This document shows positions 615 through 37,018 of a stretch of DNA of 37,489 bases, in pieces. Below the pieces are notes generated by a model that made no database searches, was not told the origin of the DNA, and worked only from the letters and a program-made list of their open reading frames with translations. The DNA lies in contig JACQZJ010000064.1 of the NCBI GenBank assembly GCA_016213895.1, positions 1-37,489 on the forward strand, read 5' to 3'. Made by a program: the position numbers and the translations under genes. The first letter of the stretch is position 1. Every line of letters begins with the position of its first letter. This DNA is from Planctomycetota bacterium. GTDB lineage: Bacteria; Planctomycetota; B15-G4; JADJEK01.

Positions 615-1556
615 ATGGCCTCGTTCCGCACGCGCCTGGCGCCGAGCCCGACGGGATCCATGCACCTCGGGAACGCGCGCACCTTCCTCGTGGCCTGGTG
701 GATGGCCCGCCATGCGGGCGGCGAGGTCGTGCTCCGGCTCGAGGACCTGGATCGCGCGCGCGTGAAGCCGGGCCTCGTGGAGCGCGTGATCGAGGACTTG
801 CGCTGGCTCGGTCTCGACTGGGACGAAGGGCCGATCCTGCAGTCGGAGCGCCTTGCGCTCTACGACGCGGCGCTCCGCCGCCTGATCGAGGCCGGACACT
901 GCTACCCCTGCGTGTGCTCGAGGAAGGAGATCCGCGCCGCGGTCAACGCTCCGCACGCCGAGGACGAGGAGTCCGTTTATCCCGGCACCTGCCGCGGCCG
1001 CTTCGCGAGTTGGGAAGAGGCGCGGGCGTTCAAAGGGCGACCGCCGGCCTGCCGCTTCCGCGTGCCGCAAGGCGAGATCGCGTTCGACGACCGCTTCCTC
1101 GGCCGCGTCGCCCTCGATCCGGCGCGGGCAGGCGGCGACTTCGTGGTGCGCTCGGTGGACGGCGCCTTCGCCTACCAGCTCGCGGTGACCGTGGACGACG
1201 CGGCCATGGGCATCAGCGAGGTGGTGCGCGGCGACGACCTCGTGGCTTCCACGCCGCGCCAGATCCTCCTCTACCACGCGCTCGGACACAGAGCGCCGCG
1301 CTTCACCCACCTGCCCCTGGTCCTGGACGAGAGCGGCGCGCGCATGGCCAAGCGCAGGGGCGACACCGAGATCGCCTTCCTGCGCGCGCGCGGCATCGAC
1401 CCGCGCGAGGTGATCGCGCTGCTCGCGCGCAGCTCCGGCTTCCCGGAGGCGGGAGCGGCGGTCTCGGCCGCCGACCTCATCGAACGCTTCGACCTCGCGC
1501 GCCTGCCGCGCGAGGCCGCGCGCCTTTCGCCCCTGCCCTGGGCCGCGGCGCGCTGA
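615..1556 (+). CDS. gluQ: Glutamyl-Q tRNA(Asp) synthetase (GluQRS)
   Basis: This paralog of the glutamyl-tRNA synthetase catalytic core activates glutamate and attaches it to the queuosine base at the wobble position of tRNA(Asp). The 313-residue product starts with the class I signature (RLAPSPTGSMHLGNART) including the HLGN form of the HIGH motif. It carries the Cys-x-Cys/Tyr-x3-Cys zinc-site pattern (YPCVCSR, then VYPGTC) and the KMSKS equivalent RMAKRRGD near residue 240. There is no anticodon-binding domain, as expected for GluQRS and unlike GltX. ATG 615 is used because the conserved N-terminus begins there; an upstream in-frame ATG at 501 would add an unrelated Arg-rich stretch. The stop is 9 bases from the stop of the convergent transketolase gene. 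Confidence 0.93.
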   Translation: MASFRTRLAPSPTGSMHLGNARTFLVAWWMARHAGGEVVLRLEDLDRARVKPGLVERVIEDLRWLGLDWDEGPILQSERLALYDAALRRLIEAGHCYPCVCSRKEIRAAVNAPHAEDEESVYPGTCRGRFASWEEARAFKGRPPACRFRVPQGEIAFDDRFLGRVALDPARAGGDFVVRSVDGAFAYQLAVTVDDAAMGISEVVRGDDLVASTPRQILLYHALGHRAPRFTHLPLVLDESGARMAKRRGDTEIAFLRARGIDPREVIALLARSSGFPEAGAAVSAADLIERFDLARLPREAARLSPLPWAAAR

Positions 1557-1578
1557 ACCGCGGGCTCAGCGCAGCCGC
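1545..1578. terminator. Shared bidirectional terminator hairpin of gluQ and the transketolase gene
   Basis: GCGCTGA (1550-1556) pairs with TCAGCGC (1566-1572), and after a one-base bulge at 1573 GCGGC (1545-1549) pairs with GCCGC (1574-1578). Both convergent stop codons lie inside the two arms, so one compact structure can end transcription from both sides. There is no flanking T tract. Confidence 0.5.
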
Positions 1579-6329: not shown

Positions 6330-8018
6330 ATGAGCGCCGACCCACAGAACAGCGACACGCCCGAGCCGAGCATCGTCCAGGACCTCGTCATCGAGTGCCT
6401 CGACCGCCTGGAGGCGCAGGGCCTCAAGGCGATCGACGACGTCTGCCGCGAACACCCCGAGCACGCCGGGGCGATCCGCAGGAAGCTCGCCAAGCTGCAG
6501 GAGGTCGGGCTCTTGGACGACGCGGCCGCGGCGCCGGCCGCGCAGGGCGAGGTCCGCATCCCGGAGAAGCTCGGCGAGTTCCGCCTGCTCGCCAAGCTCG
6601 GCGGGGGCGGCATGGGCGTGGTCTACCTGGCCGAGCAGGAGGGCCTCGGCCGCCAGGTGGCGCTCAAGCTCATCAAGCCGGAGCAGCTCCGCTTCCCCGG
6701 CGTGCGCGAGCGCTTCCGCCGCGAGGTGAAGACGATCGCGAAGCTCAAGCACCCGGGCATCGTGCCGATCTACACCGTGGGCGAGGACGCGGGCATCCCC
6801 TACTTCGTCATGGAGCACGTGCGCGGCGCCACGCTCGACGAGGTGCTCGCCGCCCTGCGCGGCAGGAAGCCCGAGACCCTGAGCGGCGCGGACATGGCCG
6901 CGGCCGTGGCCGAGCGCGCCGGCGGTGCGGAGGGCACTGGCCCCGAGCTGGCGGTCGCCTACCTGTTCAGCGGAAGCTGGGAGCAGTGCTGCCTGCGCGC
7001 CGTCCAGCAGGTGGCGGAGGCGCTCGAGCACGCCCATCGCCGCGGCATCCTGCACCGCGACATCAAGCCTTCGAACGTCATGATCACGCCGGCTGGGCGG
7101 GCGCTGCTCTTCGACTTCGGCCTGGCCACGGGCGAGGACGTGACGCGGCTGACGCGCACCGGCGTGCGCCTCGGCTCGCTCTACTACATGTCGCCCGAGC
7201 AGGCGCGCGGCGAGTTCGATCGGCTGGACGTGCGCACCGATGTCTACTCGCTCGGCGTCACCCTGTACGAGCTGCTGGCGCTGCGGCCGGCCTTCGCGGG
7301 CGACTCTGCCCACGAGGTGTTCCAGGCCATCCAGGAGGGAAAGCCGCAGCCGCTGCGCCGCCGGAACCCCGCGGTCTCTTGGGAGGCGGAGGCGGTCTGT
7401 GCCAAGGCCATAGACGCCGCGGCGGCGCGGCGCTACGGCCGCGCCGCGGACCTCGCGCGCGACCTCGGCAACGCTCTCGATCACCGCCCGCTCGAGGCGC
7501 GGCGCGGGGGCGCGCTCAGCCGCGCGCGGCGCCTGGCGCTGCGCGGTCCGGCGCGCTGGGTGCTGAGCCTGCTGTTCCTGCTGCTCGCTGCCGGCGGGTC
7601 GATCGGCTTCGGCTTGATGGAGCGCGCCGCTCGCCTGCGCGCCGAAGCGCAGAGCGAGCGAGCGCTCGAGAGCCTCGAGTGGGCGGCAGGCGTTCTCCTC
7701 GACCTCGGCCGGCACGAGGAGGCGGCGCGGGCCGCCGAGGGCCTCCTGGCCGCTTCCCCCGAGTCCTTCGAGGAACACGTCAACGCCGCGCGCTTGCTGC
7801 TCCGCTGCGCGGACGAGGCCGAGCGCCAGGCGACGGCCGCACCTGGCGCGCTCGCGGAGCAGCACGCGCAGCGCGCGCTCGAGCTGCTCGGCCGCGCCGC
7901 GGAGCTGGGCTTCGCGGACGCCGCGGTCTTGCGCGCCGATCCCAGCTTCGAGCGGCTGCGCGAGCTGCCGGACTTCCAGGAGCTGATCGAACGCATCGAG
8001 AAGCGCGGCCGCGGCTGA
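6330..8018 (+). CDS. Transmembrane Hanks-type Ser/Thr protein kinase (562 aa)
   Basis: A full kinase domain is visible: glycine loop LGGGGMGVVY (residues 90-99), ATP-contacting Lys113 (VALKLI), catalytic loop HRDIKPSN (242-249), DFG (262-264) and SPE in place of APE (288-290). An acidic leader of about 80 residues precedes it. About 40 extra residues sit between the hinge and helix E (roughly 175-218). One hydrophobic helix at about 409-427 anchors the protein. About 130 residues follow, probably outside, with helical TPR-like or coiled sequence (WAAGVLLDLGRHEEAARAAEGLL). Substrate and signal are unknown. The start at 6330 is the first ATG after the preceding gene and has no clear Shine-Dalgarno. 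It converges on the secreted-protein gene at 8152. Confidence 0.88.
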   Translation: MSADPQNSDTPEPSIVQDLVIECLDRLEAQGLKAIDDVCREHPEHAGAIRRKLAKLQEVGLLDDAAAAPAAQGEVRIPEKLGEFRLLAKLGGGGMGVVYLAEQEGLGRQVALKLIKPEQLRFPGVRERFRREVKTIAKLKHPGIVPIYTVGEDAGIPYFVMEHVRGATLDEVLAALRGRKPETLSGADMAAAVAERAGGAEGTGPELAVAYLFSGSWEQCCLRAVQQVAEALEHAHRRGILHRDIKPSNVMITPAGRALLFDFGLATGEDVTRLTRTGVRLGSLYYMSPEQARGEFDRLDVRTDVYSLGVTLYELLALRPAFAGDSAHEVFQAIQEGKPQPLRRRNPAVSWEAEAVCAKAIDAAAARRYGRAADLARDLGNALDHRPLEARRGGALSRARRLALRGPARWVLSLLFLLLAAGGSIGFGLMERAARLRAEAQSERALESLEWAAGVLLDLGRHEEAARAAEGLLAASPESFEEHVNAARLLLRCADEAERQATAAPGALAEQHAQRALELLGRAAELGFADAAVLRADPSFERLRELPDFQELIERIEKRGRG

Positions 8019-8103
8019 CCGCGCTTGCGCCGGCGCTCCGCGTCACTTCGAGCCGTTGGGCATGCCCCCCCTCCCCGCGCAGGCCAAGGCACTCCCTGCC
8101 AGA

Positions 8104-8126
8104 ACGCCCGGCGCCTGGCCGGGCGT
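8104..8126. terminator. Bidirectional terminator hairpin between kinase and secreted-protein genes
   Basis: ACGCCCGGC (8104-8112) pairs perfectly with GCCGGGCGT (8118-8126) across a GCCTG loop. It sits between two convergent stops (8018 on plus, 8152 on minus), the expected place for a shared terminator. No T tract follows. Confidence 0.5.
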
Positions 8127-8151
8127 CCGGCTCGTACGGATTGGCGCAGGA

Positions 8152-8925
8152 TCAGAGCATTCCGCACGAGGACGAGATCTTCAATGCCCGGTCGTCGTCC
8201 CCGACCAGCAGGCCGCGGTCCACATCCTCGTCGATGAGAATCAGGAACTGCGTGCGGCTGAGCAGCAAGACGCGGACACCGTGCGCCTCGAGTTCATGGA
8301 CGATGTCCATCGTGAGATCAGAGAGGCGGGTATACGATCCCGTGGAGAACGTCGCCGTGTGACGGTCCGTGCCGACCTCGACCGTTGCCGGATCGCCATC
8401 CATCGTCACCCCCGCGATGGCGCCTTCGAGGCTCACGGTGGCGACGAGGACCGGGTCCTGCGGCAGAGCCGCCGCAAGAAGGTCGGTGTAGGTCGTCTTG
8501 TGCTTTTCGTCCGTGTTGCTTCCGCTGAAGTTGACGTCCGTGATCGTCCCGCCCGGCACGCTGATGACCACCGCGCCCTCCACGGCGACCGCACTGACCG
8601 GCTTGCCCGCTGCCGCCGCCGCATCGTTGATGTCCTTCGCGATCGCCTGGGCCTTCTGGTCGTCGGTCTGTCCCTTCATGATGGCGCCTCGTGCCGCGGC
8701 CTGTGCCGGCGTGTCGTTCTCGCCCTTCTCGGGCGTCGTGACGGGCAGTGTCTCCCTCACGTTGCTCCCGGAGACCTTGTACTTGATGTCGAAGCTCTCC
8801 TGGCCCGTTGACTTCGGCGTCCCGACGTCGAGCGTGGCAATGGCGCCCCACGATGCCGACGTGCAGGCCAAGATCCAGGCCCCTGCAAAAGCGGTCCCCA
8901 CGATTCTCCGGCTCGGTGCGTTCAT
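8152..8925 (-). CDS. Secreted protein of unknown function, ATGA-coupled to the sigma-like gene (257 aa)
   Basis: The start ATG at 8925 has AAGGAAG just upstream and begins a signal peptide (basic MNAPSRRIV, hydrophobic core, Ala-rich cleavage region near residue 28). The mature part has two apparent halves: a Lys/Glu/Thr-rich segment with the helix AIMKGQTDDQKAQAIAKDI, then a beta-rich segment (VSAVAVEGAVVISVPGGTI, LVATVSLEGAIAGVTMDG). A C-terminal Leu/Val-rich region reads HGVRVLLLSRTQFLILIDED. No family is recognised. The ATG overlaps the stop of the upstream sigma-like frame as ATGA, consistent with co-expression. It shows no visible similarity to the glycine-rich pair at 23229 and 26492, although one of those also follows a sigma-gene copy. 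Confidence 0.75.
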   Translation of the reverse strand: MNAPSRRIVGTAFAGAWILACTSASWGAIATLDVGTPKSTGQESFDIKYKVSGSNVRETLPVTTPEKGENDTPAQAAARGAIMKGQTDDQKAQAIAKDINDAAAAAGKPVSAVAVEGAVVISVPGGTITDVNFSGSNTDEKHKTTYTDLLAAALPQDPVLVATVSLEGAIAGVTMDGDPATVEVGTDRHTATFSTGSYTRLSDLTMDIVHELEAHGVRVLLLSRTQFLILIDEDVDRGLLVGDDDRALKISSSCGML

Positions 8926-23228: not shown

Positions 23229-24668
23229 CTAGACTGACGTGCCCGACGTGCCGTGGACTTCTCCGTTCGCCACGTTGACCTTCGCTCCGGTGCCGTGTTT
23301 CCCGAGCGCCCCGCCGCCGCCTGGGGCCTGGCCGCTGAGGAACCCCGCAGTACCCTTCGCACTGCCGCCCGACCCACCCTCGCTCGATCCACCACCTGGT
23401 GTGCCGCCCTCGCCGCCCTGGGCAGTCGCCTTCTTGCCCGCGACTTTGTTCTCCGCGCTTGCCGGGCCGCCCTGTCCGCCCTTTCCACTGCTGTCCCCGC
23501 CGTCGCCGCCGATTGCCACTGCGTCGCCGCCGTTGCTCGTGGCCTTCGCTTCACCGCCCTTGGATTCGCTCCCCGGAGCGCCGTTGCCGGCGGCGGCCAC
23601 CGCCGCTCCTCCCGACTGTGTGTTCTCTGCTGTCGCGTTGTCACCCGAAGCTCCCTCGCTCCCGTTCGACCCAACCGCGATGACCAGGTCCGCCGCCCCG
23701 CTCACCGTGCCGAAGCCAACTATCACCGTCATACTCCCGACGGTCACGGACCTCTTCCCGCTGGACATCCCGCAGTTCTTGAGGCACGCGTCCAAGGCGT
23801 CGGCTGCAGCCGCGACGTCGTCCGGTCGGCCAATGCTCGTCTCGCTGCCGTCTTCAGTCGTGGCCTCCGTCGCATTCACCGCACTGATGAAGGCCGCCAC
23901 GCAGTCCGCGACACACTCATCGATCGACAGCTTCACCGGCGGATCCGCCTCGACCACGTGTTCGCTATGCACCACGAAGTACTGGTAGAGCCCCCACAAG
24001 GGGCACAGCAGCTGTACCCGATCGCCCACCGCCCCAAAACCAATCGACGCCAGGTCCACGTCGATCCGGTACATACGATCGCGAATGAACTCCTCGCGCG
24101 AGTCGTCCCAGACGACGGTCTCGGTCAGGTTCGCCGCCGCGGTCACGTCCAGGTCGTTCATTAACACGGTCGTCTGCCGGTCGAGGACCGTCATGCCCTG
24201 AATCCTGAGGTAGAAAGACACGACGTCGCCGTTCACGGCCCTCACCCAAGTCGTGTCGCTCGTCCCGATCGTCGCCGGAGGCGTCATCGACATGGTGCGC
24301 ACGATGAGCCTCTCGACCCCTCCGTTCCACACCTGCGCCTTCAACACCAGCATCGTGTCGTCGTACGATAGGCTCGACAGGTCCAGCGAGTAGCGATGCA
24401 CGAACGTCTCGTACACGCCGTCGCCGTTCTGATCGACCGCCCGGACTACCCACGACGACTGCACCACGGTGCTCGTGACGTCCGTGTCGCCCTGCTTGAT
24501 CGAGAACTCGTCTCCGGACTGGTCGATCTGACGAGCCACGACGTCGGCCACGACGGGTCCAGCTAGTGGTTGCACGAACAAAGGGAAGTTGATGTCCACC
24601 GTTGTCTGCGCGCAGGCCGCCGACGACATGGCCGCGACGGCCGCCGCGCACAACGACTTCCTCAACAC
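23229..24668 (-). CDS. Secreted glycine-rich protein, paralog 1 (479 aa)
   Basis: The signal peptide (VLRKSLCAAAVAAMSSAACA) precedes a beta-rich domain (about 20-260) with NGDGVYETFVHRYSLDLSSL, LVLKAQVWNGGVERLIVRTM and EEFIRDRMYRIDVDLASIGF. A Cys-bearing helical segment follows (ADALDACLKNCGMSSG). The last ~150 residues are a low-complexity Gly/Ala/Asn/Ser region (TAENTQSGGAAVAAAGNG, KATSNGGDAVAIGGDGG). It is clearly paralogous to 26492-27937 over its whole length. GTG 24668 is chosen because it gives the same signal peptide and length as the paralog (479 against 481), with GAGAGGGG upstream. ATG 24695 would add nine residues. Function is unknown; a surface or matrix role is only a guess. Confidence 0.82.
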   Translation of the reverse strand: MLRKSLCAAAVAAMSSAACAQTTVDINFPLFVQPLAGPVVADVVARQIDQSGDEFSIKQGDTDVTSTVVQSSWVVRAVDQNGDGVYETFVHRYSLDLSSLSYDDTMLVLKAQVWNGGVERLIVRTMSMTPPATIGTSDTTWVRAVNGDVVSFYLRIQGMTVLDRQTTVLMNDLDVTAAANLTETVVWDDSREEFIRDRMYRIDVDLASIGFGAVGDRVQLLCPLWGLYQYFVVHSEHVVEADPPVKLSIDECVADCVAAFISAVNATEATTEDGSETSIGRPDDVAAAADALDACLKNCGMSSGKRSVTVGSMTVIVGFGTVSGAADLVIAVGSNGSEGASGDNATAENTQSGGAAVAAAGNGAPGSESKGGEAKATSNGGDAVAIGGDGGDSSGKGGQGGPASAENKVAGKKATAQGGEGGTPGGGSSEGGSGGSAKGTAGFLSGQAPGGGGALGKHGTGAKVNVANGEVHGTSGTSV

Positions 24669-24738
24669 GATCGCACCCCTCTCGCAGCAGTTCATGATGG
24701 GCCCTTTCCATCCCCCTTGATACCTCCGCCTCCCTCCC

Positions 24739-24751
24739 GGGGGGGGGGGGG
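24739..24751. repeat. Homopolymer of 13 G (poly-C on the coding strand)
   Basis: Thirteen consecutive G on the plus strand, within a G/C-rich patch. On the minus strand it lies 70 bases upstream of the GTG start and 43 upstream of the alternative ATG of the glycine-rich protein gene. Tracts of this length slip during replication. The paralog has no such tract. Confidence 0.8.
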
Positions 24752-25086
24752 CGGGCCTCCGGGCCTCCTCGGATCCCCTCCGGGAGCTTCCCTTCAGGCA
24801 GAACCACGATACGAGGGACCGTTCGCGCGTGTCAAGCGGGCGCAGACAGATCTCTCCTGAAGCGGGGATGGCTGCCCGCATGGGTATCCTGCCGAATCTC
24901 GGAATCGGCGAGCGGCCGCCGCCGCATGAGGACCACCCTCGTGCCCGACCGAACGTAGCAACAACCCCTTCTCTCTTGGCCTGCACGAACGTAAGTCCTT
25001 TCAGGCAAATGATCCGACTTCTTGGACTGCGGAAGTTGGGCTACGGCGTGCCCGGTGTGACCACTGGTTCCCATCAGGTCATGGCG
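24752..25086. other. Intergenic region upstream of two divergent genes
   Basis: This 335-base stretch separates the poly-G tract from the palindrome of the ATPase gene. I see no supported gene. It is less GC-rich than the flanks around 24960-25070, as expected for promoters serving the divergent genes. No sigma-gene remnant like that at 28052 was found here. Confidence 0.5.
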
Positions 25087-25117
25087 TGAAACTTAGCGCT
25101 TGCGCGCCTAAGTTTCA
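25087..25117. promoter_or_regulatory. Palindromic operator-like site upstream of the ATPase gene
   Basis: TGAAACTTAG (25087-25096) and CTAAGTTTCA (25108-25117) form a perfect 10-bp inverted repeat with an 11-base GC-rich spacer, ending 37 bases before the start codon. The A/T-rich arms stand out from the surrounding base composition. It may be a protein binding site or a hairpin in the leader RNA. Confidence 0.6.
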
Positions 25118-25154
25118 TGGACACAGACGCAGACCGCACTTACGCTCGTGGGCC

Positions 25155-26315
25155 ATGGACCGACTCGACTACCTGGCCCGCATCCAACGCGGATTCCAGA
25201 TTCACCCCGTGGTGGTTCTCCTCGGGCCGCGCCAGGCGGGAAAGACCACGCTCGCGCGGGCCTACGTCGCTCGGATCGATGGGTTCCGTGCGGAACGAAA
25301 CTACTTCGATCTCGAGGACCCCACCGACCTCGGCCGGCTCGAGGCTCCGAAGCTCGCGCTGGAGCGGCTCGAGGGAATCGTCGTGGTCGACGAAGTTCAA
25401 CGATCCCCCGACCTGTTCCCTCTCCTCCGCACCCTGGTCGATCGTCCGCACAACCCGGCGCGCTTCCTGATCCTCGGCAGCGCGTCCCGCGATCTCATTC
25501 GGCAGAGCTCCGAGACGCTCGCCGGTCGCGTCTCCTTCATCGAAATCCATCCGTTCTCGGGCGTCGAGGTCGGCGTGAAGAACCTCGACCGCCTCTGGAT
25601 TCGCGGCGGGCTTCCTCCGGCCTACCTGCTCGAGTCCGATCAGGCCGCCTCGATGTGGCGCGAGTCGTACGTGAGGACATTCCTCGAGCGCGACGTTCCC
25701 TCGCTGGGCATCGATGTCCCTGCGAACGCCCTGCGACGCCTCTGGTTGATGTTGACTCACTACCACGGTCAGGTCATCAACCTGTCGGAGATCGCCCGTT
25801 CGATCGGAGTCTCCTACAAGACGATCGATCGCTACATCGACATCCTCGCCGGGACGTTCATGGTCCGCCGCCTCGCTCCCTGGTACGAGAACATCGGGAA
25901 GCGCCAGGTCAAACGCCCCAAGGTCTACTTCCGTGACTCCGGAATCCTCCATCAGTTCCTTGGTGTTGAAACGCGCGACCAGCTCGAAGTCCATCCCAGG
26001 CTCGGCGCGTCATGGGAGGGATTCGCGCTCGAGGAGGTGATCCGGCTGCACGGCGCCACCGCGGAAGAGGCGTTCTTCTGGGCGGTCCACGAGCAGATGG
26101 AGCTCGACCTGCTCTTGGTCCGCGGGGGGAAGCGATTGGGCTTCGAGTTCAAGTACGCGGACGCGCCGAAGCTCACGTGCGGTCTGATTGGGGCGCGGGA
26201 CCATCTCGGCCTCGATCAACTGACCGTCGTGCGCCCGGGGCGGGGCGACGCCCCCCTGGACGAGGGAATCACGGTCGTCGGATTGGAGACGCTCCTGAGC
26301 GAACGGCGCGCCTGA
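25155..26315 (+). CDS. AAA_14/DUF4143-family ATPase (386 aa)
   Basis: A family common in bacteria and archaea, of uncertain function. Walker A GPRQAGKTT (24-32), Walker B GIVVVDEVQRSPDLFPLLR and the sensor-like ILGSASRDLIRQSSETLAGR are present. A winged-helix-like region (VINLSEIARSIGVSYKTIDR) and a C-terminal nuclease-fold-like DUF4143 domain follow (WEGFALEEVIRLHG, FFWAVHEQMELDLLL, GFEFKYADAPK). The E...D...E-K pattern in that domain resembles PD-(D/E)xK folds, but activity is not established for the family. ATG 25155 begins the conserved N-terminus; an in-frame ATG at 25086 would run through the palindrome. It is a single-gene unit. Confidence 0.9.
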   Translation: MDRLDYLARIQRGFQIHPVVVLLGPRQAGKTTLARAYVARIDGFRAERNYFDLEDPTDLGRLEAPKLALERLEGIVVVDEVQRSPDLFPLLRTLVDRPHNPARFLILGSASRDLIRQSSETLAGRVSFIEIHPFSGVEVGVKNLDRLWIRGGLPPAYLLESDQAASMWRESYVRTFLERDVPSLGIDVPANALRRLWLMLTHYHGQVINLSEIARSIGVSYKTIDRYIDILAGTFMVRRLAPWYENIGKRQVKRPKVYFRDSGILHQFLGVETRDQLEVHPRLGASWEGFALEEVIRLHGATAEEAFFWAVHEQMELDLLLVRGGKRLGFEFKYADAPKLTCGLIGARDHLGLDQLTVVRPGRGDAPLDEGITVVGLETLLSERRA

Positions 26316-26491: not shown

Positions 26492-27937
26492 TCAGCCAGA
26501 GCAGTTCGGAACGGACGCGCCGTCGGAGAACTGGCCCTGGCCGCCCGTGACCCTGACCTTGGCGCCGGTGCCGTGGTAGCCGATCGAGTCCGGGCCGCCT
26601 TCACCGTTCGCGCCCGTCTTGCCCGTGGTGCCCCTTGCGTGACCGCCCGATCCACCCGGCTCGTCCGACCCTCCCGGGTTGCCGCCGGCGCCGCCCTGCG
26701 CGTTCGCCGTCTTGCCCGGGACCTTGTTCTCCGCGGTCGCGTCTCCACCCGGTCCGCCGGCCGCGCCCCCACCGCCGCCCGCTCCGCCCAGGGCGACCGC
26801 GTCCCCGCCGTTGCTCGTCGCCTTGGCCTCGCCGCCCTTGGCCGCGCTGCCAGCAGCGCCATCGCCCGCGTTTGCCACCGCCGCTCCGCCCGGTTGCGTG
26901 TTCTCCGCAGTTGCGCTCCCCCCGGCATTGGACCCAGTCCCGTTCGATCCGAGCGCGATGACCAGGTCCGCCGCGCCGCTCACCGAGCCGAAGCCGACCA
27001 TCACGGTCACGCCGCCGGACAACGTGACCGTCTGACTCCCGCTGGACATCCCGCATGCCTTGAGACAGGCGTCCAGCGCGTCCGCTGCCGCGCCCACGCC
27101 CTCGGGGCTCCCGATGGTCGTCTCGCCGTTCGCCTTGACCGCGTTCACCGCGTGCACGAACGCCGCCACGCAGTTCGCGATGCGCTCCTTCTTCGCCGCA
27201 TCCGCCGACGGCTCGATCTCCACGTCGGCAGCGCACGGCACCGACAGGAACCGGTTGGCGAACCAGATGTCGCTCCGCAGCTCCAGCCGGTCGCCGATCG
27301 CGCCAAAGCCGATCGACGGAAGATCCACGTCGATCCGGATCATGCGGTCACGGATGAAGCCCTCGTTCGACTCGTCCCAGATCACGGTCTCCGTCACCTT
27401 CGCTCTCGCGGTCACGTCCACGCCGTTCATGAACACGACCGTCGCCCGGTCCAGCACGGTCCCGCCCTGGAGCCTGAGGTAGTACGGCACGACGTTGCCG
27501 TTCACCGCGCTCACCCAGGTCGTGTCGCCCGTGCCGAGCGTGGCCGGAGAGATCATCGCCATGCCGCGCAGAATCAGGGTCTCCACCCCGCCGTTCCACA
27601 CCTGCGCCTTGAGCACGAGATGCGTGTCGTCGTACGACAGGTTGGACAGGTCCAGCCAGTAGCGGTGCTCGAACGTCTCGTAGACGCCGTCGCCGTTCGC
27701 GTCGACTGCCCGCACCACGGACTCCGACTGGACCACCGCGCTCGTCACGTCCGTCTCGCCCTGCTTGATCGTCAGCTCGTCTCCAGCGACGTCGATCTGG
27801 TTCGCAACCACGTCCGCCACGACGATCCCGGCCAGCGGCTCCACGAATGGCGGGAACATGATGTCCACCGTGGTCTCTGCGCACGCCGCGGACGACAAGA
27901 GCGCGGCGGCCGCCGCGCACAACGATTTCCTCAACAT
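26492..27937 (-). CDS. Secreted glycine-rich protein, paralog 2 (481 aa)
   Basis: Same plan as the protein at 23229: signal peptide MLRKSLCAAAAALLSSAACA, a beta-rich domain (NGDGVYETFEHRYWLDLSNL, LVLKAQVWNGGVETLILRGM), the Cys helix ADALDACLKACGMSSGS, then Gly/Ala/Asn-rich repeats (KATSNGGDAVALGGAGGGGG). It ends in CSG. ATG 27937 has a near-consensus AAGGAGGT upstream, implying strong translation. The start lies 114 bases after the tail of a sigma-factor pseudogene, echoing the sigma/secreted pair at 8152-10061. The two paralogs flank the DUF4143 ATPase gene in the same orientation. Function unknown. Confidence 0.85.
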   Translation of the reverse strand: MLRKSLCAAAAALLSSAACAETTVDIMFPPFVEPLAGIVVADVVANQIDVAGDELTIKQGETDVTSAVVQSESVVRAVDANGDGVYETFEHRYWLDLSNLSYDDTHLVLKAQVWNGGVETLILRGMAMISPATLGTGDTTWVSAVNGNVVPYYLRLQGGTVLDRATVVFMNGVDVTARAKVTETVIWDESNEGFIRDRMIRIDVDLPSIGFGAIGDRLELRSDIWFANRFLSVPCAADVEIEPSADAAKKERIANCVAAFVHAVNAVKANGETTIGSPEGVGAAADALDACLKACGMSSGSQTVTLSGGVTVMVGFGSVSGAADLVIALGSNGTGSNAGGSATAENTQPGGAAVANAGDGAAGSAAKGGEAKATSNGGDAVALGGAGGGGGAAGGPGGDATAENKVPGKTANAQGGAGGNPGGSDEPGGSGGHARGTTGKTGANGEGGPDSIGYHGTGAKVRVTGGQGQFSDGASVPNCSG

Positions 27938-28051
27938 GGTCGACCTCCTTCCCTGCTTCTTCGGACCCGTCCGCGACCGCGGAGTCTGCCGGCGCCGCCC
28001 CTTCATGAGGCCGCCCTCTCCTGCAGGCCGCGGTGCGGACCAGGTCATCTG

Positions 28052-28423: not shown

Positions 28424-29329
28424 TCATGGCGCGAGGATGGTGAGATGCGCCGGCAGCACCTCGATCTCGAGGCGCTCGGTGAAGCCCATGGGATCGCCGT
28501 CAGCCTGCCAGGAAAACGGCGCGCTCGAGGCGATCACGAACTCCTTGCCGCGGCCGTACTCCGCGATGAAGGGCGCGACGCGCCGGCGGCGCCTGGCCTG
28601 CAGGAGCTGCCAGGCCACGAGCGGCGCGGCCGAGCGCCAGCAGGCCTGGTAGTCGAAGACCCCGTCGCTCGTGCTCGCTCCGGGCGTCACGGCCCAGTCA
28701 CGAGCGTAGGCCTCGGTGTTGGCCACGATGATGGAACACGGCCTGCGGTCGAGTGCACGACCGTCGACGGAGAGCGTGAAGCGGCGCGGCAGCAGGCGCC
28801 AGAGCGCCAGGAAGCCGCACGCGGCATAGACCGAGCTGCCGAGGCGCTGATAGGCGCGCTCTCCGAGAGGGACGCGCCGGAGCGCGCCCACCCGGCGCGT
28901 GACGAGCGCGTCGAAGCCCACGCCCACCATGGCGAGGAACAGGTGTCCGTTGGCCCGGCCTGCGTCCATCGCCCTGGGCTTGCCAGAGAACAGGACTTCC
29001 ACGGCCGCGCGCGGATCGAGCGGGATCCCGAGCTCGCGAGCCACGACGTTGCCGTGGCCGATGGGAATGAAGCCGAGCACGCGGGCGCTGCCGCGGCCCG
29101 CGAGGCCGGAGGCCGCCTCGCGCAGGGTCCCGTCGCCGCCCACGACCACGACCAGGTCGCTGTCTTGCCCCAGCACGCGCGCCAGCTCGGCCGCGTGGCC
29201 CGGATGGTCCGTGGGCACGCACTCGACCGAGACGCCGCGCGCGCGCAGGTGCTCGGCCGCGAGGTCCGCGGCTGCGAGGGCGCGCCCGCGTCCGGCCTTC
29301 GCGTTGACGATGATGAGCGCCTGCCGCAT
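28424..29329 (-). CDS. Diacylglycerol kinase/YegS-like lipid kinase (301 aa)
   Basis: DAGK-catalytic family: LIIVNAKAGRGRA at the N-terminus, nucleotide motif VVGGDGTLREAASGL (GGDGT at 64-68), GFIPIGHGNVVARELGIPLD and a C-terminal beta domain (FVIASSAPFSWQADGDPMGF). It should phosphorylate diacylglycerol, ceramide or a related lipid at the membrane; the substrate is not determined. The usual family sequence PxGTxND is here IPIGHGNVV. ATG 29329 is chosen because the first beta strand begins there; no strong ribosome site precedes it. It diverges from the membrane protein gene at 29443. Confidence 0.85.
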   Translation of the reverse strand: MRQALIIVNAKAGRGRALAAADLAAEHLRARGVSVECVPTDHPGHAAELARVLGQDSDLVVVVGGDGTLREAASGLAGRGSARVLGFIPIGHGNVVARELGIPLDPRAAVEVLFSGKPRAMDAGRANGHLFLAMVGVGFDALVTRRVGALRRVPLGERAYQRLGSSVYAACGFLALWRLLPRRFTLSVDGRALDRRPCSIIVANTEAYARDWAVTPGASTSDGVFDYQACWRSAAPLVAWQLLQARRRRRVAPFIAEYGRGKEFVIASSAPFSWQADGDPMGFTERLEIEVLPAHLTILAP

Positions 29330-29442
29330 GGGAGCGTTGATCCTACGCGCGGCCGCGGCGGCAGTGGAGGGCTTACTCCGCCCGCCGGCCGGCGATATGG
29401 TGGTGAGCGTACACAAGCGGCCAGCCACGCACGGAGGGGCCG

Positions 29443-31362
29443 ATGAAAGACGAGTCGGCGAGCACGCAACAGGCCCTCGGCGCCAATGCCGCGCCGCCGC
29501 AGGCGGCCCCGCCCTGGTGGGTCGTCCTCGGCGTCACCTTCCTGTTCGGCGTGATGGTCGGCGGCGTCGCGGTCTACAGCTTCTTCCCCAGGGTGAAGTC
29601 GGCGCCGGTGGAGACCGAGCCGGCGCCGCGCTCCGCGACGCCGCCTGCGAGCGAGGAGACGGCCCCGGAAGTCGCGGCGGAGCCCGTACTCCTGCCGGCT
29701 CTCGAGGAGCGCGAGGACCTGACCGCGGCCGCGCCGGTCGAGCCGATCGCCGCGGAGGAGGAGGTCGAACCGCTCGACTCCTCCCCGCTCGGCCTGCGCC
29801 GGGCCTTCGGCGCGGCCGTGCTGAGCCTGACCGCCTTCGACGAGGAGGGCGACAGCCGGCCGCCGGTTCCCGCCGTGCTCCTCGGCCCGTCCACGCTGCT
29901 CGCGCCCTATTCGGCGGTCGAAGGAGCGGCACACGCGCGGGTCCGCGGATCCGATCGCGGCACCACGGACGTGGAAGGCGTGCTCGCCCACGCGCCGCAG
30001 TATGACCTGGTGCTGCTCGCCCTCGCCGCGGACCTGCCCGAGCCGCACCTGCGGCTCTCCCCCGAGGTCATCGGCTCGACCGTGGACGCAGTGCTCATCG
30101 GCGCGGTCGCGGACCCGGCCTGGCAGGAGACCGCGGTGCGCCTGTCTCCGGGCAGCGTCGACCCCTGGAGCGGCGGCCCGCGCCTCACGCTGGAGCGCGC
30201 CGCCGGCTTTGCCGGGGCCGCGCTCGACGCGCAGGGCATGGTAGTGGCGCTGGCGCCGGACGGCACGAGGAGCGCTCTCGCCGTGCATCCCGCCGCGCCG
30301 TGGATCGCTTCCGCCCTGTCGGCCGTGCCGCTCGAGGCCTTCTCACGCACGGCCGGCCCGGGCTCGCCGCCCTCGCGCCTGGCGCGGGCCCGCAAGCTGC
30401 TCCAGCAGCGCCGCTACGAGGAGGCGGCGCGGCTGCTCCTGGTGGTCACGGCCGAGGAGCCGCGGCTCATCCCCGAGGCGCGGCCGGATCTGCACCGCGC
30501 GGCCGAGGAGGCGGCGCGCCAGAGCATCACCGCCGGAAACGGCTTCGCCGCGGTCGCGCTGCTCACCGAGACCCTGGTGCGGCTGCCGGACGACGCCGAT
30601 CTCTGGGCGCTCAGGGGGCGCGGGCACGGCGTGAGCGGCGACATCCGCCTGGCGATCGAGTCATTCCTGCGCGCCGGAGAGATCGATCCCGGCCAGGCGG
30701 AGAACTGGCGCGGCGAGGCGCGTGGTCTCCTGCTCGAGGAGGCGAACCGGCTGCATGCCCAGGGCTACACCGCCGCCGCCCTGTCGCTGCTGCTCGAGGA
30801 GCGCGGCTCGTTCCCGGGCGACGGCCGCCTGCGCGTGACCGCGGGGCGTCTGCTGCTGCAGAGCCGGCGCTTCGCCGAGGCCGCCCAGGTCTTCTCCGAG
30901 GCGGCGGCCATGGACGCGACCGTGGCGGGCGAGGCGCGAGAGGAAGCGGCGCGCGCGCGCGACCTCGCCGGCGGTCCGGGCGCCATCATCATCGACTTTG
31001 CGCCCGGCTCCGCGCAGGTGGTCGTTGCCGCGGTCATCGACGGCAGGGCCAGCGCCGAGCTTCTGATCTCGCCCGGCGACGAGCTGTCGGTCATTCCACC
31101 CGCGGTCGCCCAGGCCGCGGGCTACGCCCTCGCGGCCGCGCCGCGCGTCCGCTTCTTCGCTGATCCCGGCGCCGCGGAGGTGCCGTCCGTCCAGCTGCGC
31201 ACGGTCACGGTGGCCGGAGTCCCCTGCGACCGCGTGCAGGCGGTCGTGGTGGACGGCTACGCCGCGCCCGCCGCCCAGGGAGTCCTCGGCGCCTCGTTCC
31301 TGTCGCGCTTCCGCCTGGTCGAGGACCGCTCCCTCGGCAGACTGGTCTTGCATCCGCGCTGA
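29443..31362 (+). CDS. Membrane protein joining inactive HtrA-like and retropepsin-like domains (639 aa)
   Basis: Near the N-terminus is one membrane helix (about 25-47), followed by a Glu/Pro/Ala-rich linker. Residues of about 118-290 resemble a trypsin/HtrA domain: LLGPSTLLAPYSAVEGA, QYDLVLLALA, GFAGAALDAQGMVVAL. Aligned by eye, the triad would be Ser157 (His expected), Asp188 and Ala257 (Ser expected). Residues of about 315-500 are TPR-like helices (ARKLLQQRRYEEAARLLLVV). Residues of about 515-639 resemble a retropepsin-like domain (ELLISPGDELSVIPP, then GVLGASFLSRFRLVEDRSLG), but its DTG is SPG with Ser543 replacing the catalytic Asp. Neither protease seems active. A binding or scaffold role at the envelope is inferred. 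GGAGGGG precedes the ATG. Confidence 0.7.
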   Translation: MKDESASTQQALGANAAPPQAAPPWWVVLGVTFLFGVMVGGVAVYSFFPRVKSAPVETEPAPRSATPPASEETAPEVAAEPVLLPALEEREDLTAAAPVEPIAAEEEVEPLDSSPLGLRRAFGAAVLSLTAFDEEGDSRPPVPAVLLGPSTLLAPYSAVEGAAHARVRGSDRGTTDVEGVLAHAPQYDLVLLALAADLPEPHLRLSPEVIGSTVDAVLIGAVADPAWQETAVRLSPGSVDPWSGGPRLTLERAAGFAGAALDAQGMVVALAPDGTRSALAVHPAAPWIASALSAVPLEAFSRTAGPGSPPSRLARARKLLQQRRYEEAARLLLVVTAEEPRLIPEARPDLHRAAEEAARQSITAGNGFAAVALLTETLVRLPDDADLWALRGRGHGVSGDIRLAIESFLRAGEIDPGQAENWRGEARGLLLEEANRLHAQGYTAAALSLLLEERGSFPGDGRLRVTAGRLLLQSRRFAEAAQVFSEAAAMDATVAGEAREEAARARDLAGGPGAIIIDFAPGSAQVVVAAVIDGRASAELLISPGDELSVIPPAVAQAAGYALAAAPRVRFFADPGAAEVPSVQLRTVTVAGVPCDRVQAVVVDGYAAPAAQGVLGASFLSRFRLVEDRSLGRLVLHPR

Positions 31363-31450: not shown

Positions 31451-32356
31451 ATGGACTACTCACTGACCCTGGACGGCGTCACCAAGCGGTTCGGCGCGAT
31501 GGTGGCCGTCGACCACATATCCATGGCCATCCCCAGAGGGACGATCTACGGCTTCCTCGGGCCGAACGGCGCGGGCAAGACCACCACGATTCGCATGGTC
31601 ATGAGCATCATCTACCCCGACGAGGGGCAGATCCGCATCCTCGGGGAAGAGAACGCCGAGGCGGTGAAGGACCAGCTCGGCTACCTGCCCGAGGAGAAGG
31701 GGCTCTACAAGAAGATGAAGGCGGGCGAGATCCTGGCCTACTTCGGGCGCTTGAAGGGGATGCACGGCCCCGCCGCCAGGACCAAGGCCGCGGAGCTGCT
31801 CGAGCGCTACGGCCTGGGCGAGTGGCAGGACAAGCGCTGCGAGGCCCTCTCCAAAGGCATGGGCCAAAAGGTCCAGATCCTCGCCACGCTCATCCATGAC
31901 CCGGAGCTGGTGATCCTCGACGAGCCGTTCTCCGGCCTCGACCCGGTCAACGTCGAGCTGATGCGGGACGTGATCCTGCAGATGAAGCGCGACGGCCGCA
32001 CCGTGATCTTCTCGACCCACGTCATGGAGCAGGCCGAGCAGATCTGCGACGCGATCCTGCTGGTCAACAAGGGCAAGAAGATCATCGACGGGCCCCTGGC
32101 CACGGTGAAGGCGGCCGGCGGCCGCGCGGTCATGCTGGATTACGACGGCGACGGCTCCGTATTGAGAGGCCTGCCGGGAATCGCCCGCGTCAATGACTCG
32201 GGCAAGCAGGCGGAGATCTCCCTGCTGGAGGGCGCCGATCCGCAGGAGATCCTCGGGCGGCTGGTCGGCCATCTCACCATCCGCCGCTTCGACGTGCGCG
32301 AGGCGTCGCTGCACGAGATCTTCGTGAAGGCGGTGGGAGGCAAGGCCGATGCGTAG
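31451..32356 (+). CDS. NatA-like ABC-2 exporter ATPase (301 aa)
   Basis: ATPase subunit with Walker A GPNGAGKTT (37-45), signature LSKGMGQKVQ, Walker B LVILDEPFSGLDP and switch STHVMEQ. A C-terminal DUF4162-like extension follows (IRRFDVREASLHEIFVKAVG), typical of ATPases paired with ABC-2 permeases such as NatAB. AAGGA lies upstream of ATG 31451. The stop overlaps the permease start by eight bases, so the two are co-translated. The substrate is unknown; the family exports ions, drugs or lipids. Confidence 0.92.
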   Translation: MDYSLTLDGVTKRFGAMVAVDHISMAIPRGTIYGFLGPNGAGKTTTIRMVMSIIYPDEGQIRILGEENAEAVKDQLGYLPEEKGLYKKMKAGEILAYFGRLKGMHGPAARTKAAELLERYGLGEWQDKRCEALSKGMGQKVQILATLIHDPELVILDEPFSGLDPVNVELMRDVILQMKRDGRTVIFSTHVMEQAEQICDAILLVNKGKKIIDGPLATVKAAGGRAVMLDYDGDGSVLRGLPGIARVNDSGKQAEISLLEGADPQEILGRLVGHLTIRRFDVREASLHEIFVKAVGGKADA

Positions 32357-34001
32357 CAAGTCGCTTCTCGTCGCCAATCGCGAGTACGTGGAGAACCTGC
32401 GCACCAAGATGTTCTGGGTCGGGATCCTGTTCTTCCCGATCATCCTCGTGCTGTCGATCGTCGTACCGCGCTGGCTGGAAGGCAGGAAGGACGTGCGCCG
32501 CTACGCGGTCCTCGATCGCTCCGGGTTCCTGCTGGAGCGCATCGAGGAGCGCTCCGCCATGCCGGATCTGGAGAAGGTCTTCCGCGAGGCCGTCCTGCGC
32601 CAGATCAAGGGCAAGGAGTCGCTCGCCGTGTTCCCGGCCAGCGTGCAGGCCGTGGCGGCCGCGATCGGCCAGAGTCTCTGCGAGCAGGCGGAAGGCGGCA
32701 CGAACGACGCGGCGCTCGCCCTGATGAACCAGGAGGACTTCAGGAAGGGCATGCGCGACTTCGCGTCGCTCATCTCCGGCGAACCGGGATCCAGGATGCA
32801 GCAGCTCCTGTCGAATCCCCTGTTCAAGCAGGCCGCGGCCGAGCTGGAGAAGTTCCGCGCCGAGATCCAGCAGTGGTGGCGCTCGCTGCCCCCGAAGGAA
32901 GCCAAGGAGTTCGGCTCCGACCTCTCCAAGTCGCGTTATCAGCGCATCGACGACGGCGCCTCGGGCGAGATCACGGAAGAGACGCTCAACCTCAAGGTCG
33001 CCGATAACGACCTGTTCGCCTACATCGTGATCCCCGAGGACCCGATCAAGGGGGAGCAGCAGTTCAAGTACGTGTCCAGGAACCTCACCGACGAGGACCT
33101 GCGCGAGTGGTTCGCCCGCTACGCCAACGACGAGCTGCGCGAGCGCCGCCTGGAGCAGGAGTCGATCGACCGGACAACGGCTGACTGGATCCAGAAGCCG
33201 GTCGACTTCGAGAAGAAGCAGGTGAGCAAGCAAGGCAAGGAGGAGGAGATCGCGAAGGAGGACATCGCGCTCAAGTGGGCGCCGGTGGTCTGCGTCTACC
33301 TGCTGTGGATCGCGGTCTTCTCCATCTCTCAGATGCTGCTCACCAACACCGTCGAGGAGAAGTCGAACCGCATCCTCGAGGTGCTGCTGTCGTCCGTCTC
33401 GCCGCTGCAGCTCATGAGCGGCAAGATCATCGGCATCGCCTGGACCGGCCTGACCATGGTCTGCTCGTGGGTGCTGTCCTTCGTGGCGCTGGTCAAGTTC
33501 ATGCCCGCGCTCATGGGCAAGGACCTGGGCGTCAACCTGCTGCAGGCGGCGAGCGACCCGCTGCTGCTCACCTCGTTCATCGTCTACTTCCTGCTCGGCT
33601 ACCTGTTCTTCGCCGCGTTCCTGGTGGGCATCGGCTCGGTGTGCAACACGGTGAAGGAGGCCGGCAACCTGATGATGCCGGTGTCCGTGCTGCTGATGCT
33701 GCCGCTCTTCTCCATGATCCCCGTGGGCCAGGACCCGAACGGCACGCTCGCCAAGTTCCTGTCCTACATCCCGCCCTTCACGCCCTTCGTGATGATGAAC
33801 CGCGCCGGCGGCCCGCCCTCCTTGACCGAGTACGTGGTCACCTCGATCCTCCTGATCGTCACCATCGTCCTCGTCTTCTGGGCCGCCGCCAAGGTGTTCC
33901 GCATCGGCATCTTGATGACCGGCAAGCCGCCGACGCCCCTCGAGATCCTCCGCTGGATCCGGGCCCCGATCGGGCAGGTGCCGGCGCGGAAGCAGGAGTA
34001 G
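32349..34001 (+). CDS. NatB-like ABC-2 permease (550 aa)
   Basis: One N-terminal membrane helix (MFWVGILFFPIILVLSIVVP) is followed by a large soluble loop of about 250 residues (charged, helical, with AEIQQWWRSLPPKEAKEF). A block of about five helices follows from around residue 315 (VVCVYLLWIAVFSISQMLL, MVCSWVLSFVALVKF, FIVYFLLGYLFFAAFLVGI, LLMLPLFSMIPVG, ILLIVTIVLVFWAAAKVF). VEEKSNRILEVLLSSVSPLQ is a hallmark of the ABC2_membrane_3/NatB family. It forms the exporter with the ATPase encoded just upstream. It is the last plus-strand gene before the IS21 element. Confidence 0.9.
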   Translation: MRSKSLLVANREYVENLRTKMFWVGILFFPIILVLSIVVPRWLEGRKDVRRYAVLDRSGFLLERIEERSAMPDLEKVFREAVLRQIKGKESLAVFPASVQAVAAAIGQSLCEQAEGGTNDAALALMNQEDFRKGMRDFASLISGEPGSRMQQLLSNPLFKQAAAELEKFRAEIQQWWRSLPPKEAKEFGSDLSKSRYQRIDDGASGEITEETLNLKVADNDLFAYIVIPEDPIKGEQQFKYVSRNLTDEDLREWFARYANDELRERRLEQESIDRTTADWIQKPVDFEKKQVSKQGKEEEIAKEDIALKWAPVVCVYLLWIAVFSISQMLLTNTVEEKSNRILEVLLSSVSPLQLMSGKIIGIAWTGLTMVCSWVLSFVALVKFMPALMGKDLGVNLLQAASDPLLLTSFIVYFLLGYLFFAAFLVGIGSVCNTVKEAGNLMMPVSVLLMLPLFSMIPVGQDPNGTLAKFLSYIPPFTPFVMMNRAGGPPSLTEYVVTSILLIVTIVLVFWAAAKVFRIGILMTGKPPTPLEILRWIRAPIGQVPARKQE

Positions 34002-34195: not shown

Positions 34196-34711
34196 TCAGA
34201 ATCCGCGGGATTCTGGCGCTGAGGACGCGTCACGTGGCTGTCCTTTGCGAACTGGACCGGCGGCGAGCCGCCGAAGGATGTCGGCGAACATCAGCGGTTC
34301 CGACGCGGACTCCGCCGGCGAGCGGGACAAGGGGCGAGCGCGGGCCTCGGGAGTTGGTCGCGCGTCGTCTGGTGGCCCGGGCGGGAGCGGGAGGAGCTGC
34401 CAGACGCCGTCCTGGCTGGTGGGATTCCACGGCCGGAAGGCGAGCAGCCCAAGATGCAGCAGCCGCTCGAGCGCCTGGTCGAGGACACGACGCATGAGGC
34501 CGAGGGCGGCGGCCATGCGGTCGCGGCCGTAGAACGAGGCGCCGCGGGCGTCGGCGGCGAGCGCCAGGAGCAGCAGCACGGCGGCGGCTTCGGGACCAAG
34601 CGAGCGCAGCCAGTTCTGGTGCAGCAGGCGCCCCGGGAGCCAGCCGAAGGGCTCCCGGGGTCTGCGCCACAGGTCCGGCCGCGGCGGGAGCGGCGGAGGG
34701 CGGGGTTTCAC
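34196..34711 (-). CDS. Third ORF of the IS21-like element, winged-helix-like (171 aa)
   Basis: The GTG start at 34711 overlaps the istB stop (GTGA), indicating translational coupling. A Pro/Arg-rich leader (KPRPPPLPPRPDLW) precedes residues of about 24-110, which look like a winged helix: FGWLPGRLLHQNWLRSLGPE, AVLLLLALAADARGASFYG, RVLDQALERLLHLGLLAF, DGVWQLLPLP. The tail is Arg/Ser/Pro-rich and passes a hairpin at its stop. Such a DNA-binding domain could assist target choice or regulation, but this is inference; canonical IS21 elements carry only istA and istB. The last dozen codons may lie outside the element (candidate end at 34235). Confidence 0.6.
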   Translation of the reverse strand: MKPRPPPLPPRPDLWRRPREPFGWLPGRLLHQNWLRSLGPEAAAVLLLLALAADARGASFYGRDRMAAALGLMRRVLDQALERLLHLGLLAFRPWNPTSQDGVWQLLPLPPGPPDDARPTPEARARPLSRSPAESASEPLMFADILRRLAAGPVRKGQPRDASSAPESRGF

Positions 34712-35517
34712 GCCGACTTCTTCCGCTTGCCAGGGTCCTTGGACTTGCGGGCGCGCCGGCGCTCGGCCTCGCGCTCCTTGGCCTCCTTGAGGCGGTAGGA
34801 CTCGCCGCGGATCTCCACGATCTCGGCCCGATGTATGAGGCGGTCGATGAGGGCTACGACCGACGTGGAGTTCGGGAAGACCTGGTTCCACTCCGAGAAC
34901 ACACGGTTGGTGGTGACGACCGTGGACTTGTCCTGGCGGCGGTTGATGACTTCGAACAGCAGGTCGGCGTGGCGGCTGTCGTAGGACAGGTAGCCGACTT
35001 CGTCCACGCACAACAGTGTCGGATGGGCGTAGCGCCGGAAGCGGCGCTCGAGGCCGGCGGGACCATCCTGGGTCAGCAGGTCGGAGAGCATCTGGCTGGC
35101 ACCGGCGAAGCGCACGGTGTAACCGCGCTGCACCGCCTCGTTGGCCAGGTTCTTGGCGATCATGCTCTTGCCCACGCCGTTGGGTCCGATGAAGACGGCG
35201 TTGGCGCCTTCCTTGACGAAGGACAGGGTGAAGAGCTCGTCGATCTGTTCGCGGTCGACTCTCTCCGGCCACTTCCAGTCGAAGTCGCACATGGGCTTGA
35301 AGCGGCCGCAGCGGGCGTTCCTGAGGCGGCGCTCGAGGCTGCGCCGCTGGCGCGCGGCTTCCTCGAGCTGGAGGACGTGCTCGACCCACGGCTGATCCTG
35401 GATCTCCTCCCAGTTGTCGAGAAGGCCGTAGAGGCCGAGCCTTAGGGCGCGCTCGCGCCGCCTGGCGGGATCATCATGCGACGGGGCAGGTGCAAGCAGG
35501 GTCGTGGTCATCGTCAT
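34708..35517 (-). CDS. istB: IS21-family helper ATPase IstB
   Basis: AAA+ ATPase of 269 residues that loads the transposase on target DNA. The N-terminal domain is followed by Walker A GPNGVGKS (111-118), Walker B TLLCVDEVGYLSYD, the sensor STVVTTNRVFSEWNQVFPNS and a C-terminal DRLIHRAEIVEIRGESYRLK, all typical of IstB. The Lys/Arg-rich end (KSKDPGKRKKSA) is also usual. It overlaps the istA stop by 44 bases and is followed by the GTGA-coupled third ORF. Confidence 0.95.
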   Translation of the reverse strand: MTMTTTLLAPAPSHDDPARRRERALRLGLYGLLDNWEEIQDQPWVEHVLQLEEAARQRRSLERRLRNARCGRFKPMCDFDWKWPERVDREQIDELFTLSFVKEGANAVFIGPNGVGKSMIAKNLANEAVQRGYTVRFAGASQMLSDLLTQDGPAGLERRFRRYAHPTLLCVDEVGYLSYDSRHADLLFEVINRRQDKSTVVTTNRVFSEWNQVFPNSTSVVALIDRLIHRAEIVEIRGESYRLKEAKEREAERRRARKSKDPGKRKKSA

Positions 35518-37018
35518 CCTCCTTGTTGGGGTGGAATGGATCTGGGTCTGCTGCCAGTGCGTCGTAGTCGGTCAGCGGGTGGGGGCGCACGGACAGGTTC
35601 TTCAGGCGGGCGTCGTCGGGCAGGTCCACGGGCAGCAAGGGCGGCCGGCCGCTGGCCTTGCGGTTGCGCTCGAGGATGAACTCCAGGGAGCGCGGATGGA
35701 CCGCGCCGCTTGAGGCCGCCTCCTTGGCGGCCTCCTCGAGAGCCGCGGCGCCGTAGCGCTCGAGCAGGCGCACCAGGCGCGAGCAGGCCCAGCCGAGGTT
35801 CTCGCCGCGGTTCGCGAGCTCGAGCAGCACCGCCTCGAGCGCGGGCGCGGCACGCGTGAGGCGGTCCACGCCGCGCTCCTTGCGCGCCTGGCGCTTCTCC
35901 TGGACCAGGGCCTCCAGGTGTGCCGGGTCCTCGATGGTCTCCCTGCGGTCAAACGAGCGGCGGTGCGTGGCGACGAGCTCGTTCCCCTCGAGGATGCGCA
36001 CCGCATCCTCGGTGGCCCAGACCGACAGCCCGCGGCGGACCCTGGTGTGCGGCACCGAGTAGTCGTTGCCGTCGAAGCGGACATAGGGAGTCTTGCCGGC
36101 GCGCACGTCCACGCGCTCGAACACGGGGAAGGGATCGGGCGGCAGCGGCAGGAGCAGCGGCTGCTCCCTGGTGAAGGCCTGCCGCACGCTCTGGTCGTGG
36201 TCATCGGGAAGCGGGCGGTCCAGGACCTGATCGCACCAGGTGCGCGCCTGGGCATTCAGGTCAGCGAGGTCGCGGAAGGTGCGCGCTGCGTAGAACGAAT
36301 CGCGCACGAAGCGTACAGCCCGCTCCACGCGCCCTTTTTCCGAGCCCCGGTAGGGTGCCACGGGGCGCGCCTCGTAACGGTAGTGACCGGCGAACTGGAG
36401 CAGGGTCGGATGGAAGCGGATGGCGTCGCCCTTGCGCTCGAGCACGGCGCTCTTGAGGTTGTCGTAGAGAATGACGCGCGGGCAGCCCTGGGCCGCGGCG
36501 AAGGCCTCGACGTGGCCCTGCAGGAAGCACTCGGTCTTGGCGCTCAGGAAGAAACGCAGGAAGATCCAGCGCGAGAACGACAGCACCAGCAGGAAGGCGA
36601 GCAGCGGGCGCTCCGCCCGGCCGATGCGCACCTTGCCGAAGTGCGCCCAGTCGACCTGCGCCTGCTCAGCGGGCAGGGTCTTCAGGCGCAGAAACGCCTC
36701 GGCCGCCGGCCTCGGTCGGATTCCCTGGACGACGTGCCGCAGGTGGCTCGGCGAGCCGCGGTAGCCCCGCTCCCAGCACATGCGCCACAGGCGGCTGCTG
36801 AGCAGTCGTGGGTACTTCTTGAGCGTCTCCAGGATGAAGGGCAGGTACGGATCGACGATCGAGGGGCGGATGATCCTGTGCCGCGGCAGGCCGTCCTGGT
36901 CGACGACGCGCCGCACCACGTCGTGGTGCAGGGAGAGTTCGGCGGCGATGGTGCCGATCGGCCACTTCTCGGCGTGGTAGAGCCGCAGGATCAGGGCCTC
37001 GGTTTCGCGGGAGATCAC
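35474..37018 (-). CDS. istA: IS21-family transposase IstA
   Basis: DDE transposase of 514 residues. The N-terminal HTH region (about 5-50: LILRLYHAEKWPIGTIAAEL) precedes an RNase H-like core with D123 (QAQVDWAHFG), D186 (VILYDNLKSAVL) and E232 (SEKGRVERAVRFVRDSF). A C-terminal beta-barrel follows (KTPYVRFDGNDYSVPHTRVR). All three catalytic residues are present, so the element may be active. The GTG start at 37018 is supported by GGAGG seven bases upstream. Confidence 0.95.
   Translation of the reverse strand: MISRETEALILRLYHAEKWPIGTIAAELSLHHDVVRRVVDQDGLPRHRIIRPSIVDPYLPFILETLKKYPRLLSSRLWRMCWERGYRGSPSHLRHVVQGIRPRPAAEAFLRLKTLPAEQAQVDWAHFGKVRIGRAERPLLAFLLVLSFSRWIFLRFFLSAKTECFLQGHVEAFAAAQGCPRVILYDNLKSAVLERKGDAIRFHPTLLQFAGHYRYEARPVAPYRGSEKGRVERAVRFVRDSFYAARTFRDLADLNAQARTWCDQVLDRPLPDDHDQSVRQAFTREQPLLLPLPPDPFPVFERVDVRAGKTPYVRFDGNDYSVPHTRVRRGLSVWATEDAVRILEGNELVATHRRSFDRRETIEDPAHLEALVQEKRQARKERGVDRLTRAAPALEAVLLELANRGENLGWACSRLVRLLERYGAAALEEAAKEAASSGAVHPRSLEFILERNRKASGRPPLLPVDLPDDARLKNLSVRPHPLTDYDALAADPDPFHPNKEDDDDHDPACTCPVA

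Follow-up and report, generated by a model that had tools for sequence, protein, structure and literature searches.

What does a membrane protein do when it carries two protease-like domains of unrelated catalytic classes, each apparently stripped of its active site? The question is raised by a gene at 29443–31362 (plus strand, as for all positions within it) in the window, the whole 37,489-nt stretch of planctomycetal DNA analysed here. An initial annotation had read its product as an HtrA/trypsin-like and a retropepsin-like domain joined by TPR-like repeats, both domains dead, and had proposed a peptide-binding scaffold at the envelope.

Two protease-like folds in one membrane protein

The gene is an intact open reading frame encoding 639 amino acids, and in a congener (G001) the homolog begins with GTG at the corresponding position. 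An AlphaFold2 model of the protein, built from 31 homologs, had a mean pLDDT of 86, with most blocks of residues 111–639 at 80–98; the alignments include DTG-bearing relatives and may bias the model toward the canonical fold. It comprised a helix at residues 25–47, a beta domain at 126–280, paired helices at 309–509 and a second beta domain at 515–639. The first helix (29515–29583) was also supported by hydropathy (Kyte-Doolittle 2.27), in agreement with the claimed membrane location. The 24 residues before it had no Pfam match, and an RsgI-type cytoplasmic anti-sigma domain was not found there. When the sequence alone was searched, Pfam detected an aspartyl-protease domain and TPRs, the latter forming, with the model and a profile match in support, a helical region of about five helix pairs (residues ~305–510, 30355–30972) between the two protease-like domains, just as had been described.

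Single-sequence searches of Pfam and NCBIfam gave no trypsin match for the protein, and its N-terminal region had no Pfam match, so the HtrA-like assignment (residues ~115–300, 29785–30342) needed profile and structure methods. Profile–profile alignment by hhalign against the HtrAs of its own genome gave probabilities of 93–95 and E values of 2e-7 to 5e-8, and a Foldseek search of the PDB with the AlphaFold2 model returned the S1C domain of RsgI9 first (E 2.6e-10), followed by DegP, DegS and DegQ (E ~1e-7). Model and profile alignment together indicated that the S1C double beta-barrel fold is present, while the His-Asp-Ser triad of HtrA is not. Both hhalign and the homolog alignment placed Ser157 (29911–29913) at the position of the catalytic His, retained the triad Asp as Asp188 (30004–30006) and put Ala257 (30211–30213) at the nucleophile position, with FAGAA for NSGGP. 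The C-terminal PDZ domain that characterises the HtrA subgroup was not found in the Pfam scan, and the TPRs come next instead.

The C-terminal domain (residues 515–639, 30985–31359) was recognised directly from the 639-aa sequence, with PF13975 scoring 29.8 against a gathering threshold of 28.2 over residues 530–622 and PF13650 scoring 28.7 against 24.3. A profile match to the Rickettsia protease APRc also backed the assignment. Modelled in isolation, the domain reached a pLDDT of 94, and Foldseek returned Rickettsia conorii APRc (5c9f) first (E 5e-8, TM 0.73) and then the HIV-1 and HIV-2 proteases. The clan AA fold of retropepsins is present, but the catalytic D-T/S-G loop is replaced by Ser543-Pro544-Gly545 (31069–31077). 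Among the 23 aligned homologs outside the window's own bacterial family (f1), these three columns hold Asp in 23, Thr in 22 and Gly in 23, and the placement of SPG opposite the catalytic motif is thus more than chance. The former flap motif, Thr-Ala in 23/23 aligned homologs outside f1, reads Ala573-Asp574 here (31159–31164). These results confirmed the residues and folds first noted in both domains, the fold searches having recovered S1C-like and retropepsin-like structures. Both active sites are almost certainly dead in this protein, and the computations show both protease folds as confidently predicted to be kept.

HtrA-type domains without the canonical motifs were also seen elsewhere. Of 11 HtrA-type domains read in the same genome (loci L068, L069 and L070 among those covered), three had neither the His nor the GNSGGP motif, so pseudo-HtrAs are common there. 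A different protein, found at 577–2205 (minus strand) of L010 in genome G015 and at 1375–2904 (plus strand) of L011 in G046, joins an unrelated C-terminal region to an HtrA-like N-terminal part in which Ser takes the place of the His.

Relatives and the order of the losses

Order- and phylum-wide searches found about 30 relatives of the same architecture in the same phylum, from about 13 families, and the 639-aa protein fits this pseudo-HtrA, TPR and retropepsin membrane family in domain order and in being alignable over its full length. A scan for related loci with the single protein matched only the G001 contig, and plasmid and viral-contig searches with a DTG-bearing relative (L005) came back empty. 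Two CxxC motifs precede the transmembrane helix in most relatives, 19 of 31 members are hit by double zinc-ribbon profiles, and in many Lys/Arg is more frequent before the helix than after it. The 639-aa protein has Lys/Arg after the helix and not before, and no CxxC motif was found ahead of it, two features that blur its own topology; the zinc ribbon is also absent from the f1 homolog of genome G002 and from a few others, and is kept in that of G003. A cytoplasmic zinc ribbon in the relatives would leave the C-terminal part external, and from this homology we tentatively infer that the ectodomain of the 639-aa protein faces the periplasm.

Across the homologs the HtrA-like His position was never His and the nucleophile motif was never present, the Asp being kept in some. 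With both missing from all homologs, this loss is old: either the sampled proteins inherited a domain already dead in their common ancestor, or it was never active in such an architecture. The aspartic site tells a different history. Outside f1, all homologs of the same architecture carry DTG, with the exception of one DSG, and are presumed from sequence to be active proteases. Within f1 the site was altered in all four genomes, reading SPG in the 639-aa protein, APE in G001, DAS in G002 and DAG in G003, and all four proteins had lost the flap Thr-Ala. In the tree f1 formed one clade (100/100) adjoining the DTG-bearing family f71 (95/90), so the simplest history is an ancestral DTG that f1 then lost. 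On the first branch within f1, G003 retains both Asp and ribbon; G002 retains Asp without the ribbon, and the 639-aa protein has neither, which makes the order of loss readable. Apparent intermediates of aspartic-site loss persist in living relatives. As computed from these alignments, an HtrA loss present throughout the homologs recovered and an aspartic loss confined to f1 are not one event. The initial annotation was right that both sites are gone from one chain whose folds are predicted to be kept, but these were separate losses, and the check it called for, whether the substitutions are fixed among homologs, came out positive for the HtrA-like part and negative for the aspartic loop.

The Asp kept in G002 and G003 raises the question of residual or altered catalysis, in which DAG and DAS members would cleave weakly and the 639-aa protein would use another residue. 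We consider this highly improbable, given Ser or Ala at the Asp position in the 639-aa protein and G001, the loss of the flap motif from all four f1 proteins and the impairment of APRc by an Asp-to-Ala change at D140 (PMC4140852). Retropepsins are dimers to which each chain gives one Asp (PMC12239564), and a dead chain might act as a dominant-negative subunit, forming heterodimers with an active retropepsin and so poisoning it. This role was set aside as barely credible because the genome, 95.5% complete, yielded no further PF13975 domain.

Constraint, neighbourhood and proposed role

That f1 shed its DTG, its flap motif and its zinc ribbon step by step could also be the trace of a decaying gene, whose catalysis was lost as the protein was no longer needed. 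Comparison with the G001 gene by NG86 gave dN/dS of 0.215 for the pseudo-HtrA domain, 0.196 for the retropepsin-like domain and 0.536 for the linker, figures drawn from 101 and 126 codons, as the G001 gene is broken across two contigs. NG86 was used since YN00 failed for most pairs, and its comparisons with G002 and G003, near saturation, were left out; for the same pair YN00 put the two domains at 0.08 and 0.04. By these estimates both dead domains are computed to be under purifying selection within the genus. Such ratios of about 0.2, together with intact full-length open reading frames in three genera, argue against decay, which we regard as very unlikely, and the selection indicates that the protein is in use.

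Constraint was unevenly placed within the C-terminal domain. The ex-catalytic loop 543–549 is the second most conserved 7-residue window outside f1; within f1, in figures based on four sequences, it is the least conserved (rank 1 of 120), or second least (2 of 120) when each genus contributes a single sequence. Conservation within f1 is highest in the C-terminal strands 626–636 (VEDRSLGRLVL, 31318–31350), and selection appears to have shifted its focus to them from the catalytic loop. This bears on the proposed peptide-binding scaffold, in which the two dead domains would still hold peptides in their former substrate clefts. Both folds are kept and ligand-binding pseudoproteases are known, but the retropepsin cleft residues (loop 543–549 and the flap Thr-Ala) are lost. 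Working cleft residues should stay conserved, yet the loop varies in f1, which leaves peptide binding unsupported and this reading unlikely; the membrane anchor and the non-catalytic character of the proposed scaffold stand.

The gene lies between a divergent YegS/DagK-type lipid kinase gene (28424–29335, minus strand) and, 88 bp downstream, an ABC exporter with a DrrA-like ATPase (31451–32356, plus strand) and an ABC-2 permease (PF12698; 32349–34001, plus strand). The positions of the kinase and ATPase genes are kept in G001 and G002, and the order lipid kinase, 639-aa gene, ABC ATPase and permease is maintained in two genera (in G001 spread over two contigs, and in G002). A search for sigma-70-type promoters or terminators between the genes found none, a result of little weight at such G+C content. 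The conserved order and the short gap would suit an accessory subunit of the exporter (31451–34001), with the ectodomain docked on the extracytoplasmic part of the permease. In G003, by contrast, the ABC pair adjoins another gene and is separate from the homolog, and no adjacent exporter was found for homologs outside f1, whose neighbours vary between families. The link to the exporter is suggestive only, and a subunit role is quite unlikely.

Other genes of the surroundings were noted mainly by eye. In the window, similar proteins with Gly/Ala-rich tails are encoded at 23229–24986 and 26492–28048 (both minus strand), with a DUF4143 ATPase gene (25086–26315, plus strand) between them, and just beyond the permease an open reading frame pair at 34708–37018 (minus strand) resembles IS21-type IstB and IstA. 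Elsewhere, a caspase-like protein adjoins the G003 homolog (L073, 2896–5010, minus strand; NF047832 match below cut-off), and an S41 peptidase-like protein, recognised by eye, is encoded divergently beside a homolog from family f3 (L074 in G009, 6337–8466, minus strand).

We favour a reading in which the 639-aa protein, descended from a membrane aspartic protease, probably serves as a non-catalytic scaffold or sensor anchored in the membrane by a single helix. The ancestor would have belonged to a membrane family with zinc ribbon, transmembrane helix, pseudo-HtrA domain, TPRs and an intact retropepsin-like aspartic protease. TPRs are protein-binding repeats, and the TPR arm may be the main partner-binding surface, while the pseudo-HtrA domain would sense a ligand or partner, a function also proposed for RsgI9. 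The conserved C-terminal strands would preserve the retropepsin fold as a platform for structure or dimerisation, a role suggested for strands 626–636 because the dimer platform of HIV protease is built of amino- and carboxy-terminal strands (PMC12239564). The output would no longer be cleavage, and the protein most likely works by holding partners, not by cutting. More tentatively, and with rather less than even confidence, we suggest that a family with an already dead serine-protease-like module lost its aspartic site stepwise (DTG to DAG/DAS to SPG/APE) and became purely architectural as its conserved surface, once the catalytic loop, came to be the C-terminal strands.

Comparison with known systems

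To our knowledge pseudoproteases are known singly, and no paper on double pseudoproteases was found in the literature searched; here one chain combines two, of unrelated catalytic classes. The best fold match to the N-terminal domain, the S1C domain of RsgI9 from Clostridium thermocellum (7sjy), is likewise a protease-like domain on a membrane protein, but RsgI9 has an RsgI cytoplasmic domain and an NTF2 domain that were not seen in the 639-aa protein. The RsgI9 domain is reported as cellulose-binding, and its ectodomain is also reported to autocleave (PMC12203970). MamO, an HtrA pseudoprotease of magnetotactic bacteria, has similarly lost catalysis and kept the HtrA fold for a non-catalytic role (PMC4794232); it differs in having H116, D149 and T225 at the triad, a C-terminal transporter-like domain and no retropepsin part.

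For residues 515–639 the bacterial retropepsins APRc/RC1339 of Rickettsia and RloA of Pseudomonas share the fold, but APRc has the catalytic D140 and RloA has DTG where the 639-aa protein has SPG. IgG binding by APRc has been assayed with both the wild type and an active-site mutant (PMC8649778). With RsgI9 and MamO, this gives each of the two folds a published precedent for a role other than catalysis. Among TIGR02281 clan AA aspartic proteases, the relative L005 qualifies by score (60.9 against a cut-off of 57.95) and the 639-aa protein, at 18.2, does not. The closest counterparts are proteins from other families of the phylum, such as L005, L006 and L008, with zinc ribbon, transmembrane helix, pseudo-HtrA domain, TPRs and DTG protease in the same order and alignable over the full length. 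They too lack the HtrA His and Ser, but their flap Thr-Ala and D[TS]G loop are intact, and most have the zinc ribbon, all three of which the 639-aa protein is without. They point to a recurrent family of membrane aspartic proteases in the phylum, apparently uncharacterised and with a triad-less HtrA-like part in every member seen, whose DTG-bearing members are natural controls of the same architecture for testing what a retropepsin domain does besides cutting.
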